A program made the translations under genes and the position numbers. From Maridesulfovibrio salexigens DSM 2638 (GTDB lineage Bacteria > Desulfobacterota > Desulfovibrionia > Desulfovibrionales > Desulfovibrionaceae): a DNA stretch of 62,500 bases. The DNA lies in NCBI RefSeq assembly GCF_000023445.1, contig NC_012881.1:1-62500 (forward strand), given 5' to 3'. Below the pieces are notes generated by a model. That model was given only the letters and a program-made list of their open reading frames with translations, was not told where the DNA came from and did no database searches. Shown piece after piece: positions 22,262 to 52,834 of the stretch; positions within the stretch are counted from its first letter, which is position 1, and each line of letters starts with the position of its first letter.

Positions 22262-23647
22262 TTAAAGTAGCGGAGCGACCAATCTTGCCGCGCCTTCAAT
22301 GGTATCGCGGACCATTCCCACAGGAACAGTTCCCTCGGTGCTTACATCAATAAGCCCCTGAACCCAGTCGCTGACCGGCTTAACATCAGCTTCGGAATAG
22401 GTGAACATGACTATTTCATAGTTGAGAAACAGGCTGCGCATATCCATATTTGCCGATCCGACAACTGCGAGTCGGTCATCGACTACAATAACCTTGGCGT
22501 GGACCATGTGGGGATATTTTACCACCCGTCCGCCGCATTCTTCCAGATCTCGCAGGTGGGTACCCCGGGCAAGGTCAGCCAGCTTGTGGTTTGATTTTGC
22601 CGGAACGACCACCCTTAGGTCCACACCGCGTAGAGCGGCCAGTCGCAGGGCCTGTGCAAGCGCTTCATCTGGCACATAGTAGGGAGTAACGATCCAGAGT
22701 CGTTTTTCCGCAGTAAAAGCAGCGGTAAGCAGGGCATCGTGAACAGGATCGCGCGGAACGTCAGGCCCGGAAGGAACAACCTGCATGACTCCTTCCCCGC
22801 TGATCGCAGATCCTTTGGTGCAGGGTGGAATGATGTTCACTTTTTCACCGTGTGCAAAGAGCCAGTCTGATTGGAAAACTTCTATGTAATGTCGTACCGC
22901 AGGACCTTGCAGGACAAAAGAAAGGTCAGTCCAGCGTTCTTCGCATGGCTCAGGTCCTATGTATTCGTTGGCAATGTTTGTGCCCCCGGCCAGCACGATT
23001 TTCTGGTCGGCGATGGCGATTTTGCGATGGTTGCGCAGGTTGCTGTTGCCATGAAAGGGGGCTCGGAAAAGGGGCATGAAATAAGCAACCTTGCCGCCGT
23101 TATCGATAAGTTTTTTCAGGAAGCGGCGGGAGGTGAACATGGAGCCGATATCATCCAGCAACAGTCTTACTGTGACTCCTGATTCGGCTTTGCGGGCCAG
23201 CCTTTCCACAATGTCTTTACCCACTTCATCACGGGAGAGAATAAATGTGGTAATCAGAATCTGGTGTTCGGCGTTTTCAATGAGTTTAACCAGCTCATTA
23301 TAGATGTCGATACCAGTAGGGCACAGCCGGACTTTGTTGCCGCTGGTTGCTCCGGGAATTCCGTATTCACGAAGCATGACGTCAATGGGGTCTGATTCCT
23401 TAGCGGGAATTGTTTCCTGCACCTCAAGATGGATGTCTTCTTTGGTATGGGCATCACGTTTGAGCTTGCGTCCCCCGAATATGAGGTAAAAGGGAACTCC
23501 GACGTATGGTACAAAGAAAATAGCCAACAGCCATGCAAAAGCAGCTGATGATGTGCGCTGTTTGCGCAGGATGGACATAACCAGAATTGCAGCCAGCAAA
23601 AAACCGCCTACTACCGCGAGATGACCAAATAAGAGATTCCATTCCAT
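22262..23647 (-). CDS. cls: Cardiolipin synthase
   Basis: A 461-aa phospholipase-D-superfamily enzyme that condenses phosphatidylglycerol to cardiolipin. Two N-terminal transmembrane helices (about 5-55) are followed by two HKD motifs: HRKIAIADQKIVLAGGTN in the middle and HAKVIVVDDRLAVVGSAN near the C-terminus. ATG 23647 has AGGA at the right distance; the in-frame ATG at 23674 does not. It is transcribed toward the phospholipase-like gene, 45 nt apart. Confidence 0.92.
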   Translation of the reverse strand: MEWNLLFGHLAVVGGFLLAAILVMSILRKQRTSSAAFAWLLAIFFVPYVGVPFYLIFGGRKLKRDAHTKEDIHLEVQETIPAKESDPIDVMLREYGIPGATSGNKVRLCPTGIDIYNELVKLIENAEHQILITTFILSRDEVGKDIVERLARKAESGVTVRLLLDDIGSMFTSRRFLKKLIDNGGKVAYFMPLFRAPFHGNSNLRNHRKIAIADQKIVLAGGTNIANEYIGPEPCEERWTDLSFVLQGPAVRHYIEVFQSDWLFAHGEKVNIIPPCTKGSAISGEGVMQVVPSGPDVPRDPVHDALLTAAFTAEKRLWIVTPYYVPDEALAQALRLAALRGVDLRVVVPAKSNHKLADLARGTHLRDLEECGGRVVKYPHMVHAKVIVVDDRLAVVGSANMDMRSLFLNYEIVMFTYSEADVKPVSDWVQGLIDVSTEGTVPVGMVRDTIEGAARLVAPLL

Positions 23648-49590: not shown

Positions 49591-50931
49591 ATGATCAAAA
49601 AAATATTACTAAAAAATTTCTTGGCCCATGCGGAAACCGAGATTGAGCCCGGTCCGGGCATGACCGTGCTGACTGGTCCCAACAACAGCGGTAAATCTTC
49701 CATTGTTGAGGCTTTGCGCTGCATTGCAACCAATCCGCTGCCGAAACATTTTATTCGTCACGGAGCTAAACAGGCTCGTGTTGAATTGGAAATGGATGAT
49801 GGCGTTCGTGTGGCGTGGATTCGTAAAAAGGCTACTGCGTGGTATGAAGTTCTTCGCCCCGATGAAGAGGAATGGGAAGTTTATGCCAAATTCGGGCGTA
49901 ATACCCCGGAAGATATTTTGAACATTTTGCGCCTTAATCAGGTTCCGTTGGAAGGCGGCAAATCGCTTGATGTCCACATCGGCAACCAGCGTAATCCTAT
50001 CTTTCTGCTCGATCAGCCTTCATCTGTTGCCGCTCAGTTTTTTGCTTCGTCTTCGGAAGCTTCTCATTTGTTGGCCATGCAGACAGAACTTAAAAACCGT
50101 GTTCGTGCTGCCAAGCGGGAGAAAAGTTTCCAGCAGCAGAAACTCGATGAAATCCGTACTGAGCTTGATGAACTGCAAACCCTGCCCGATGTAAATCTGG
50201 AACTTGAAACTGCCCGAGATCTGAAAGGGCGGATGGATGTTCTGGATAATGAAATCCCGGCGGTAGAAAAATATCTGCAACGTAAAGGCGAGCTTGAAAA
50301 TTACAAAACAAGCCTCGGCGCGCGGGAAAAAGAATTGTCGGAATTGAAGGAAGCGCCCGAACTTTTTCCTTCCGTACCTTTGGAGCGTGTGGTTTCAGGC
50401 ATGGAGCGTTTGCGTATTCATGGGCAGAATCTGAAAGCAAGGTCTGAGTCACTTGACGGATTACAAGTACCTCCCGAACTTTTCCCGGTACAGCGTCTGG
50501 AAGCGGAGCTTGTGCGGCAAAATCAACTTACTTTTGCAGAAGAAAAACAGAATGCACGACGCAAGGTGCTGGAACCGCTCTCATCTCCTCCTCAGCTGGA
50601 AGATGTTACTGCACTTTCCGCAACTATCCACAATCTGTCCGGCAACTATGGGGCAAGGGATGAGATTTTACGCCGCGCTGCTGTGTTGGTTCCGTTAAAT
50701 GAGCCTCCAGAACTTCATGATTTTTCGGCTCTTATGAAGGTTATGAACAATCTTTCTTCTTTGCACAAAGCACAGACAGACGCGCAGGCCCGTTTGACTG
50801 AACTTGAAAAGTCCGAATCTGACCTTAAACAGAAGATTGAGGTCCGACTGGCAGAAATTGGGAATTGTCCGCTCTGCGGCGGTGATCTTGATGCGCAAAA
50901 GTTGATCGGGGAGGAAAGTAATGAGTCTTGA
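49591..50931 (+). CDS. SbcC/Rad50-like ATPase, N-terminal half (Walker A, coiled coil, zinc hook)
   Basis: A 446-aa protein that looks like the first half of an SMC-type DNA repair ATPase. Walker A GPNNSGKSS is at 29-37 behind MIKKILLKNFLAH, the usual Rad50/RecF start. A coiled-coil arm runs from about 165 to 424, with an exact 39-residue repeat at 255-410. It ends just after a zinc-hook-like CPLCGG (C426, C429). There is no ABC signature or Walker B; these are in the gene at 52178. It overlaps the phosphoesterase gene by 11 nt. The natural reading is a split Rad50. Confidence 0.82.
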   Translation: MIKKILLKNFLAHAETEIEPGPGMTVLTGPNNSGKSSIVEALRCIATNPLPKHFIRHGAKQARVELEMDDGVRVAWIRKKATAWYEVLRPDEEEWEVYAKFGRNTPEDILNILRLNQVPLEGGKSLDVHIGNQRNPIFLLDQPSSVAAQFFASSSEASHLLAMQTELKNRVRAAKREKSFQQQKLDEIRTELDELQTLPDVNLELETARDLKGRMDVLDNEIPAVEKYLQRKGELENYKTSLGAREKELSELKEAPELFPSVPLERVVSGMERLRIHGQNLKARSESLDGLQVPPELFPVQRLEAELVRQNQLTFAEEKQNARRKVLEPLSSPPQLEDVTALSATIHNLSGNYGARDEILRRAAVLVPLNEPPELHDFSALMKVMNNLSSLHKAQTDAQARLTELEKSESDLKQKIEVRLAEIGNCPLCGGDLDAQKLIGEESNES

Positions 50932-51874
50932 GAAAGTAAAAGCTAACGGGCTTTTCCTTATCGGAGACCCTCATATAGCCTCTACTCCTCCGGGCCAGCG
51001 GCTGGGAGATTTTGCTGCGGACGTACTGGAAAAATTGGAAGCCTGTTTTGAGCGAGCTGCTGAATTGGAAATGATCCCGCTGATTCTGGGTGATCTTTTC
51101 CACTGGCCGCGTGATAACGGCAATTCCTTGCTGGTGGATATGATCGGGCTGTTCGGTAAGTATAAGCCTTTTGTGTTGGTGGGTAACCATGACAAATATC
51201 AGGCTCGTTTCACTCCGGACGTTTCCATGGCCGTGCTTGATGCCGCCGGGGTTATCAATTTGATTAGTGAACAGGGTCCGGCTTTTGAACTTGAGACTCC
51301 GCAGGGGCTGGTATTGATTGGTGCGTCGCCGGATTCCACGCCCATTCCCAAGGAGTTTGATCGCGAGGACGGGAAGTATATTAAGGTAGTCTGGGTGACT
51401 CATCATAATATTTCTTTTCCCGAGTGCGAGAAAAAGCAGCACGCTATCAAGGAAAAAACGGGCATAGACTGGATTATTAACGGTCATATTCATCGTCCGC
51501 GCGAATCTATCACCAAGGGGATGACGACTTGGGCTAACCCCGGAAATATTACCCGTCTTGTTTTTTCCCGGTTGGCTCTTGAGCGTAAACCGCAGGCAGG
51601 AATCTGGACTCCGGCTTGTGATGATCTTGATAAATGGGAAATTCCTCATCGTGACTTTTACGAAGTATTTCCTAATCAGGAATTTTTACCCGAAGCTGAA
51701 GATGCGGCAGCAGCCGAATCAAAATTTTTACAGGGCCTTGAGCGTCTGGCATGGAAAAGAACCCATGAAGGCGAGGGGCTTAAGCAGTTTTTAACAGATA
51801 ATATCGACCCGGAAGAGCCGGAAAGCACTCTAATCTGGGAATTGTATACGGAGGTTACCGATGGCAATGGGTAA
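50921..51874 (+). CDS. Mre11/SbcD-like metallophosphoesterase
   Basis: A 317-aa calcineurin-like phosphoesterase. The metal motifs appear in order: GDPHIA (about 18-23), GDLFHW (about 62-67), VGNHDKY (about 87-93), THHN and NGHIHRPRE (about 187-195). It resembles SbcD/Mre11 nucleases but has a short C-terminal part (about 245-317), which may bind the ATPase arm. It lies between the two halves of an SbcC-like ATPase and overlaps both neighbours, so it is very probably the nuclease subunit of the same complex. Confidence 0.83.
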   Translation: MSLEKVKANGLFLIGDPHIASTPPGQRLGDFAADVLEKLEACFERAAELEMIPLILGDLFHWPRDNGNSLLVDMIGLFGKYKPFVLVGNHDKYQARFTPDVSMAVLDAAGVINLISEQGPAFELETPQGLVLIGASPDSTPIPKEFDREDGKYIKVVWVTHHNISFPECEKKQHAIKEKTGIDWIINGHIHRPRESITKGMTTWANPGNITRLVFSRLALERKPQAGIWTPACDDLDKWEIPHRDFYEVFPNQEFLPEAEDAAAAESKFLQGLERLAWKRTHEGEGLKQFLTDNIDPEEPESTLIWELYTEVTDGNG

Positions 51875-52178
51875 TGGAATGAATAATGGTACAAGTCAGC
51901 CCGTAAATGGACTTGAGCAGGAACTTAATCTGCTCAAAGATCAGCATAAATGGTTGCATGACAAGAAAATCCGCACTGAGCAGGAACTTGCAAGCACCAC
52001 CAGCCAGCTTGCTGCTTTGGAAGAAGAAGCTAAGGCTCAATACGGTACCAGCGATCCGCAGGAACTGGCTAAGCTTCTGGAAGAGAAAAAAGCTGAAAAC
52101 GCACGTTTAGTTACCGAGTACCGTTCCCATATCATGTCGATTAAAGAAGGTTTGGATAACTTGGAAGGCAATAATTAA
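51861..52178 (+). CDS. Small coiled-coil protein of the split SbcCD-like operon
   Basis: A 105-aa protein that is almost wholly coiled coil (about 17-100, with ELNLLKDQHKWLHDKK and LAKLLEEKKAENARLVTEY) after a Gly/Asn-rich N-terminal tail. It overlaps the phosphoesterase gene by 14 nt and touches the next start by 1 nt. It may stand in for the missing descending arm of the Rad50-like ATPase, whose C-terminal half has only a short coil. I know of no named family; the role is inferred from position and shape. Confidence 0.7.
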   Translation: MAMGNGMNNGTSQPVNGLEQELNLLKDQHKWLHDKKIRTEQELASTTSQLAALEEEAKAQYGTSDPQELAKLLEEKKAENARLVTEYRSHIMSIKEGLDNLEGNN

Positions 52179-52834
52179 TGCCTCCGGCGGCCTATATGGA
52201 ACAATCTGAAATTACACTTGAATCCTTAGAACGCAGAGCAGATCGGTTAAGTGCTAAGGCTTCGTCACGCATGGATGACTGGCTGTCTTTGCGTGAAGAG
52301 GGCCGCAAGGTCGATGAATTTTTGGAAATAGCTCCGGGCGCGGCTGATCGGTTGGAAGAGCTTTCCACCGCTTTGTTCGGGGAACTTTTGAGCGAACTTG
52401 AGACCAACCTTACTCATGCCATCCGTGAAATTCTCGGGCAGGATCGCGAAGTTAAGGCTGTTGCCTCTATTCGTGATAAAAAGTTGCAGGTTGATTTCCA
52501 GATTTTAAATCAGGGCGGCGAAGAAGATATCATGGTCGGGCAGGGCGGCTCGGTTTGTAATATTTTATCTGTGGGATTGCGGCTTATTGCTCTGTCGCGG
52601 CTGAATCCTGAAGCGCATAGGCCCTTTCTGGTACTGGATGAACAGGATTGCTGGCTGCGTCCTGACCTTGTGCCCGGATTTATGGAATTGATCAGGACCA
52701 TTGCAGAGCGGCTGGGTTTTCAGGTGCTCGTTATCAGTCATCATCCTTTAGATTTATTTTCTGAAAGTGCGGATGCAATTCTGGCTTTGCAACCACAGAA
52801 AGAAGGTGGTCCGTCTGTGGAAAGGGTTAAGTAA
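52178..52834 (+). CDS. SbcC/Rad50-like ATPase, C-terminal half (signature, Walker B)
   Basis: A 218-aa protein with the second half of an ABC/SMC ATPase head. A short coiled coil (about 7-90) leads to a strand-rich part, a signature-like GQGGSVCNILSVGLRL (121-136), Walker B FLVLDEQD (D154, E155), a D-loop-like WLRPD and the H-loop ISHH (H188). No Walker A is present; that is in the gene at 49591. ATG 52178 lies in a TAATG overlap and partly in a GCCTCCGGCGGCC repeat remnant; ATG 52196 is an alternative start. Confidence 0.8.
   Translation: MPPAAYMEQSEITLESLERRADRLSAKASSRMDDWLSLREEGRKVDEFLEIAPGAADRLEELSTALFGELLSELETNLTHAIREILGQDREVKAVASIRDKKLQVDFQILNQGGEEDIMVGQGGSVCNILSVGLRLIALSRLNPEAHRPFLVLDEQDCWLRPDLVPGFMELIRTIAERLGFQVLVISHHPLDLFSESADAILALQPQKEGGPSVERVK

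Follow-up and report, generated by a model that had tools for sequence, protein, structure and literature searches.

The first 62,500 nucleotides of Maridesulfovibrio salexigens DSM 2638 contig NC_012881.1 (the window) contain four overlapping genes, here called A, B, C and D, that together probably encode a divergent Mre11-Rad50-type class of complex. Sequence comparison suggests an SbcCD-like DNA-end machine whose Rad50-like head is divided between A and D and which replaces SbcCD in the Desulfobacterota, and we give this reading a probability of roughly 0.8. The four genes are arranged as follows:

49591..50931, plus strand: gene A, 446 amino acids; Rad50/SMC-type N-lobe, tandem-repeat arm and C-terminal CPLC
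50921..51874, plus strand: gene B, 317 amino acids; Mre11/SbcD-like phosphoesterase whose C-terminal segment is conserved
51861..52178, plus strand: gene C, 105 amino acids; looks like a coiled coil by eye, interrupted at a conserved YGTSD
52178..52834, plus strand: gene D, 218 amino acids; Rad50/SMC-type C-lobe

All four frames are intact, with overlaps of 11 (A/B), 14 (B/C) and 1 (C/D) nucleotides, and their coordinates and frames agree with those given in an initial annotation of the window. The motifs of an ABC/SMC-type head are distributed over A and D:

49675..49698, plus strand: Walker A, GPNNSGKS (A residues 29-36); G29, N31, N32, G34, K35 and S36 invariant in 17/17 A proteins
49987..49989, plus strand: A Gln133, candidate Q-loop glutamine; invariant in 17/17
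52538..52561, plus strand: signature-like GQGGSVCN (D residues 121-128); G123, G124 and N128 invariant in 48/48 D rows
52625..52648, plus strand: Walker B, FLVLDEQD (D residues 150-157); L153, D154, E155 and D157 invariant in 48/48
52736..52744, plus strand: H-loop, SHH (D residues 187-189); H188 invariant in 48/48

Key motif residues showed no variation when 17 A, 21 D and 19 B sequences were aligned, those of the window among them; together with a gene order kept in 67/80 named loci (see below), this is more than chance would give. Walker A is present in every row of the A alignment, SGG[EQ] in none and a loose [LVIF]{3}DE string in 2/17; Walker A occurs in 0/48 D rows. The usual form of the ABC signature is SGGE/Q, and D reads GQGGS instead. 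The initial annotation had assigned Walker A and the CPLC motif to the first gene and the signature, Walker B and H-loop to the fourth. Each was found where it had been placed, the signature in this unusual form.

Profile searches linked the two proteins to opposite halves of the same structures. A matched the Pfam family AAA_23 at 1.4e-14, and an A profile searched against the Protein Data Bank (PDB) found Rad50 best (4.8e-10), then SMC6 chains, then the Rad50 N-half chains 1ii8_A, 3qkr_A and 1f2t_A. The single D sequence had no Pfam match above cut-off. A widened D profile, built from 48 rows from Desulfobacterota, Planctomycetota, Bacillota and plasmids, matched Rad50 C-half chains best, with 3qkr_B at 5.6e-6 and 1ii8_B at 3.1e-5. 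In the entries 1ii8, 3qkr and 1f2t, A thus corresponds to the N-half chain and D to the C-half chain; since the head halves are separate chains there, a Rad50 head built from two chains can be stable.

Large plasmids provide a second line of support. D and A form one protein, with D near its start, in all six loci read from the 21 plasmid records with a D match; the hosts are Alteromonas, two Pseudomonas, Vibrio, Bosea and Variovorax. This protein is 573-663 residues long and is annotated 'AAA family ATPase' in four of the six, and its remaining part, which terminates in CxxC, matches A (E 1.5e-33 to 1.4e-57). The preceding gene is C-like, at 5.4e-8 to 1.8e-18 in five loci but 0.003 in Alteromonas; the following gene is B-like, at 7.2e-11 to 1e-62 in five loci but 7.7e-5 in Alteromonas. 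All these E-values were computed over only 26 proteins. The plasmid order is thus C-[D-A]-B, with D and A fused in permuted order. Because the two are joined in every plasmid locus read, the A and D halves very probably form one head. Together with the Rad50 half matches and the co-occurrence described below, these fusions bear out the earlier proposal of a single split ABC/SMC-type head.

Protein B resembles the nuclease partner of such a head, as had been proposed for the gene lying between the head halves. It matched Pfam Metallophos at 5.3e-9, and its closest solved relatives were the SbcD/Mre11 chains 4o24_A and 2q8u_A (3.3e-6), which we take to be from T. maritima. Eight residues (D16, H18, D58, N89, H90, H161, H189 and H191), presumably metal ligands by comparison with Mre11, show no substitution at any covered position in 71 chromosomal loci and none in 19/19 alignment rows. 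A conserved C-terminal segment, S.FI.GLENLA..RT.EG.GL..FL..NL, could be the Rad50-binding part. Protein C had no convincing family match in profile searches; it sits between B and D in 67/80 loci and adjoins D in nearly every locus with all four genes.

Two features of A lie beyond its N-lobe:

50335..50802, plus strand: tandem array of four 39-residue units (A residues 249-404), each beginning L..L..(A/P)P.L
50866..50877, plus strand: CPLC hook-like motif (A residues 426-429), 17 residues before the end of A

The A arm is a repeat array, unlike the 17 SbcC arms compared. Autocorrelation of the window's own arm peaked at 39 residues (0.29, above all 500 shuffles, of which the largest gave -0.08), with a second peak at 78, and the strongest period was 39 or 78 in 55/57 chromosomal A proteins tested. 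Among the canonical SbcC arms, 0/17 exceeded all 200 shuffles, the nearest (L209) being reached by four. Arms on mobile elements vary. The strongest period in phage A was 47, not 39, in 26/27 contigs (L216-L242); phage gp32 has an arm that exceeded all 300 shuffles, as did four out of five viral arms, and the fifth (L236) was reached by one shuffle. Two of the six plasmid arms peaked at 34 and 36 above all shuffles, and the other four were without a period. Across the alignment of 17 A proteins, the arm between residue 166 and the hook is 214, 260-261, 296 or 335-343 residues long, so that its length classes differ by roughly one unit (36-47 residues). Such steps of about one unit seem to make it unlikely that the repeats form a strictly up-and-down bundle whose tip sits at the far end; a kinked rod or a hairpin per repeat unit is more likely.

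At the tip, a CxxC motif lies within the last 46 residues of all 117 A proteins whose C-terminal part is visible, and has the form CPxC in 109 of them; this set includes near-copies and the alignment's own rows. At least two histidines follow the motif in 83/117 and none in 13/117. Zinc could therefore be bound within one chain in many relatives of A. The window's own A has no histidine after CPLC, so that a Rad50-like intermolecular hook is possible there. The C-terminal end of A matched the Rad50 entry 6zff, which we take to be a hook construct, at 0.001.

Among 40 relatives, D was found at E <1e-60 in 16/17 genomes of the genus, counting the window's own, and in 2/7 others of the family. 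A sample of 297 genomes of the phylum gave D matches at 0.001 in 28, of which 14 lay below 1e-40 and the other 14 between 1e-3 and 1e-4; D was counted as present only below 1e-40. The A and B profiles each matched below 1e-100 in the same 14/297 genomes (Fisher 2.9e-24), with up to five and seven candidates scored per genome, respectively; the search covered A, B and D. In two of the 14 (G145 and G112), A lies on another contig. A fifteenth A match, an 82-residue frame with an internal stop (G250:C13:2284-2442), occurs in a genome where B has no match at 1e-20 and D none at 0.001, and this A-like remnant is an apparent case of decay of the cluster.

A scan of named genomes confirmed 128 relatives, and 80 loci were kept. 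The survey of gene order suggested by the initial annotation found A-B-C-D on one strand in 67 of these 80; of the other 13, eight are cut by a contig end and five have D alone (L117, L132, L133, L134 and L145). All four genes were present in 16 of 20 regions read, L068 among the 16. Extra sequence separates D from the preceding genes in three loci of Desulfovibrionaceae type (L068, L099 and L118); in L068 about 2.6 kb lies between C and D and holds a long frame that is RNase R-type by eye. The cluster spans several phyla, Bacillus-type phages and large plasmids, a range at odds with the initial view that split heads are rare. Distances among A proteins correlated with those among D proteins over 73 chromosomal loci (Mantel r 0.64, against at most 0.14 in 999 permutations); as no correction for shared species history was applied, we did not use this value as evidence of interaction.

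The D-like protein of Bacillus phage vB_BboS-125 led to 27 related viral contigs. Every one of them encodes, on a single strand, an A with CxxC at its end, D and a frame resembling B, and C scored above threshold in 13 of them. Since these contigs are closely related, they do not represent 27 independent events. In vB_BboS-125 the B-like frame (L216:4881-5999, about 22285-23403 of NC_048735.1) lies between gp36 and gp37, mostly where no gene is listed. Microbacterium phage Magritte gp2 ('exonuclease'; L087:284-934) is D-like (A5 profile 2.9e-26 over 26 proteins) and lies near an ASCE ATPase; none of three neighbours tested was A-like. Searching viral contigs with the D alignment gave 25 pattern matches, none of which was confirmed. 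The A alignment gave 54 viral loci, none with a separate D gene by profile; most match A through the P-loop end only and therefore look like single-chain SbcC-type proteins.

In the Desulfobacterota the cluster seems to replace SbcCD, as judged from where the two kinds of gene occur. The initial annotation had reported no canonical sbcCD in the window, and a search of the complete genome (a single contig of 4,289,847 bases, 99.99% complete) extended this: there was no match to the SbcD model TIGR00619, and the SbcC model TIGR00618 gave two P-loop fragments far below cut-off. The cluster itself matched neither curated model and so is not SbcCD in the narrow sense. The genome's best AAA_23 match is a 639-residue frame elsewhere (C1:342076-345783, L001), which carries the CxxC motifs CPIC and CSLC and has no TIGR00618 match. 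Across the 297 genomes, SbcD-model matches (E <=0.001) occurred in 1/14 with D and 164/283 without it (p 1.6e-4). The corresponding counts were 0/18 and 18/22 in the 40 relatives (p 6.5e-8) and 0/20 and 11/14 in the window's family with both samples pooled (p 1.3e-6). The curated SbcD cut-off was exceeded in only 54/297 genomes; most of the matches are therefore SbcD-like proteins, which we assume are perhaps YhaO. The sole genome with both D and an SbcD-model match (G173) groups with three sulfate-reducer rows in a mainly Planctomycetota clade of the D tree (support 94, not starred), which fits a later acquisition. This was a quick tree of 94/116 loci, with near-copies and short rows dropped; it has long plasmid branches, and its deep order was not relied on. 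Weak SbcD-model matches were present in 25 of 41 genomes from the named loci, with 0/41 above the curated cut-off. Among the 12 with Desulfobacterota- or delta-type titles, only L150 and L170 had such matches, and both belong to the clade of G173.

These observations suggest a model for the complex. A would give the N-lobe, the arm of 39-residue repeats and the CxxC tip, D would give the C-lobe, and the two would form one Rad50-like head. By homology to Mre11-Rad50, two heads would then sandwich ATP, with Walker A (A) of one opposite GQGGS (D) of the other. B would be a metal-dependent nuclease seated on the heads. C probably braces the short coil of D and the base of the arm, replacing the missing return strand. 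If ATP gates DNA access to B, the complex would act like SbcCD on DNA ends that are blocked or form hairpins, cleaning or cutting them. The shared ATP site, the assembly with its ATP sandwich, the processing of DNA ends, and the roles of C and the tip are inferred. Whether the cluster should count as a separate class, with heads that are A-D heterodimers and an arm that is a single-chain repeat rod without a return strand, is a more tentative matter, and we place that proposal slightly below even odds. If it is correct, no covalent link connects the C-lobe with the hook; ATP-driven movement of the head would then be uncoupled from DNA tethering, or coupled to it through C alone, and the reach of the arm would evolve by gain or loss of units of about 39 residues. 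The permuted D-A fusions indicate that the head tolerates the opposite connectivity.

Several results weigh against our reading. The assignment to Rad50 is not sharply separated from SMC proteins: SMC6 matched A at 2.7e-9, nearly Rad50's score, and the SMC fusion 6qpw matched the D profile at 4.9e-5, near Rad50's scores and above 1us8_B and 1f2t_B. Alignment of D with the bacterial SbcC C-lobe (hhalign) gave a probability of only 0.5% with the narrow alignment and 3% (E 0.014) with the widened one, although it nonetheless places the Walker B and H-loop positions in register. A aligned with the same SbcC proteins through their N-lobe at 97% (E 2.6e-11, full-length profile) or 95% (2.4e-8, N-lobe alone). 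The SbcC set comprised 17 proteins from 20 regions, L197, L210 and L214 having been dropped by eye together with two long frames without SbcC motifs (in L208 and L209). The initial annotation had named SbcC homologues that align with one gene only as evidence against a split head; this is literally what was found for SbcC, but not for Rad50, and D resembles Rad50 rather than bacterial SbcC. Its description of a normal SbcC cut at the apex had to be abandoned, given that D lacks a significant SbcC C-lobe match, the arm is a repeat array and the plasmid fusion is permuted. The nuclease assignment is likewise weakened outside chromosomes, where crude expressions, affected by contig ends, were used for five ligand motifs. 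Plasmid B proteins failed at least four of the five in 4/6 loci (L083-L086, from Alteromonas, two Pseudomonas and Vibrio), all five being passed in Bosea (L089) and Variovorax (L090), and nuclease activity is therefore not universal. Phage B frames matched the B profile at 6e-13 to 9e-22 (small database), and 0/27 passed all five. Finally, the Fisher tests of exclusion and co-occurrence ignore phylogeny, and 23/29 cluster genomes outside the Desulfobacterota have sub-cut-off SbcD-model matches, so that exclusion between the cluster and SbcD has been demonstrated only within the Desulfobacterota.

The doubtful nuclease on plasmids could also mean that the complex works as a machine for tethering or loading DNA, with B having mainly a structural part and nuclease activity being secondary, since those plasmids retain the D-A protein though B fails most ligand tests. 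The unchanging ligands of chromosomal B make this improbable, slightly more so than a role in anti-phage or plasmid defence or silencing. For the latter, which would keep the split head as described but liken it to Lamassu, Wadjet or retron systems instead of general repair, A matched LmuB at 6.5e-17 and other defence ATPases, and D matched 12 PADLOC families, mad3 best at 8.7e-7. The A matches fall largely at the shared P-loop end, however, and neither B nor C had a PADLOC match at 0.1 (adjoining genes were not scanned). The cluster is also kept in 15/16 same-genus relatives, occurs in phages and plasmids as well, and largely excludes SbcD in the phylum; we consider a defence role unlikely. 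The divergence of D from SbcC would be explained if A and D were separate ATPase-related proteins without a common head, but neither half has a complete motif set, the permuted fusions join the two, and both occur in the same 14/297 genomes, which leaves this idea very little room. There is a negligible chance that mutation or an assembly error disrupted an otherwise normal sbcC: frameshift, pseudogene and broken gene are ruled out by conservation across phyla, the same gene order and overlapping intact frames.

MurJ and a small methyltransferase are encoded upstream of the cluster, and FliN and a PMT-type glycosyltransferase downstream. A promoter scan found 2 sites, compared with 5.6 in shuffles, and gave no usable signal.

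It has long been asked how the Rad50 head transmits its ATP state through the coiled-coil arms to the hook. Separate head halves, the opposite plasmid fusion and a stepwise arm would make this coupling testable by mixing parts. The cluster would also supply a DNA-end nuclease for Desulfobacterota that appear to be without one, and a function for 'hypothetical' and 'AAA family ATPase' proteins in bacteria, phages and large plasmids.

The cluster shares with Mre11-Rad50, whose best-matching structures are presumably archaeal, a Rad50 N-half (A), a Rad50 C-half (D), an Mre11/SbcD protein (B) and a CxxC tip. Taken broadly, the defining parts are both ABC lobes, present here in two proteins; a phosphoesterase with full metal ligands, present in chromosomal loci; and a CxxC tip, the predicted hook. 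The long intramolecular antiparallel coiled coil running N-lobe-hook-C-lobe is lacking, as the halves are in two chains and D has no long return coil, only about 45-60 residues preceding its lobe (by eye). The cluster differs further in its head from two genes, repeat arm, extra subunit C and GQGGS signature. With bacterial SbcCD it has in common an operon of ATPase and phosphoesterase and an SbcC N-lobe that aligns with A, whereas the SbcC C-lobe has no significant D match, the window's own B is missed by TIGR00619, and the 17 SbcC compared are single chains of 935-1224 amino acids. Two phage families also correspond to the head halves: PHROG 16465 (exonuclease) matches A at 1.5e-29 and PHROG 15167 (ATPase) matches D at 1.6e-4. 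They are listed as separate families, their entries contain no statement of a shared head that we found, and the phage arm unit is mostly 47 residues. No description of such a cluster was found in the open-licence literature, preprints excluded, and neither split nor permuted Rad50 is described in the available portions of PMC7326373, PMC1193525, PMC9389158 and PMC12153180. A also matched a profile of archaea-specific SMC-related proteins (ASRPs) at 2.8e-16. According to the portions of PMC9389158 available, ASRPs are single chains that carry both head halves and a zinc hook, with no nuclease partner mentioned there; in the cluster described here, the head is split and is accompanied by the nuclease-like protein B.

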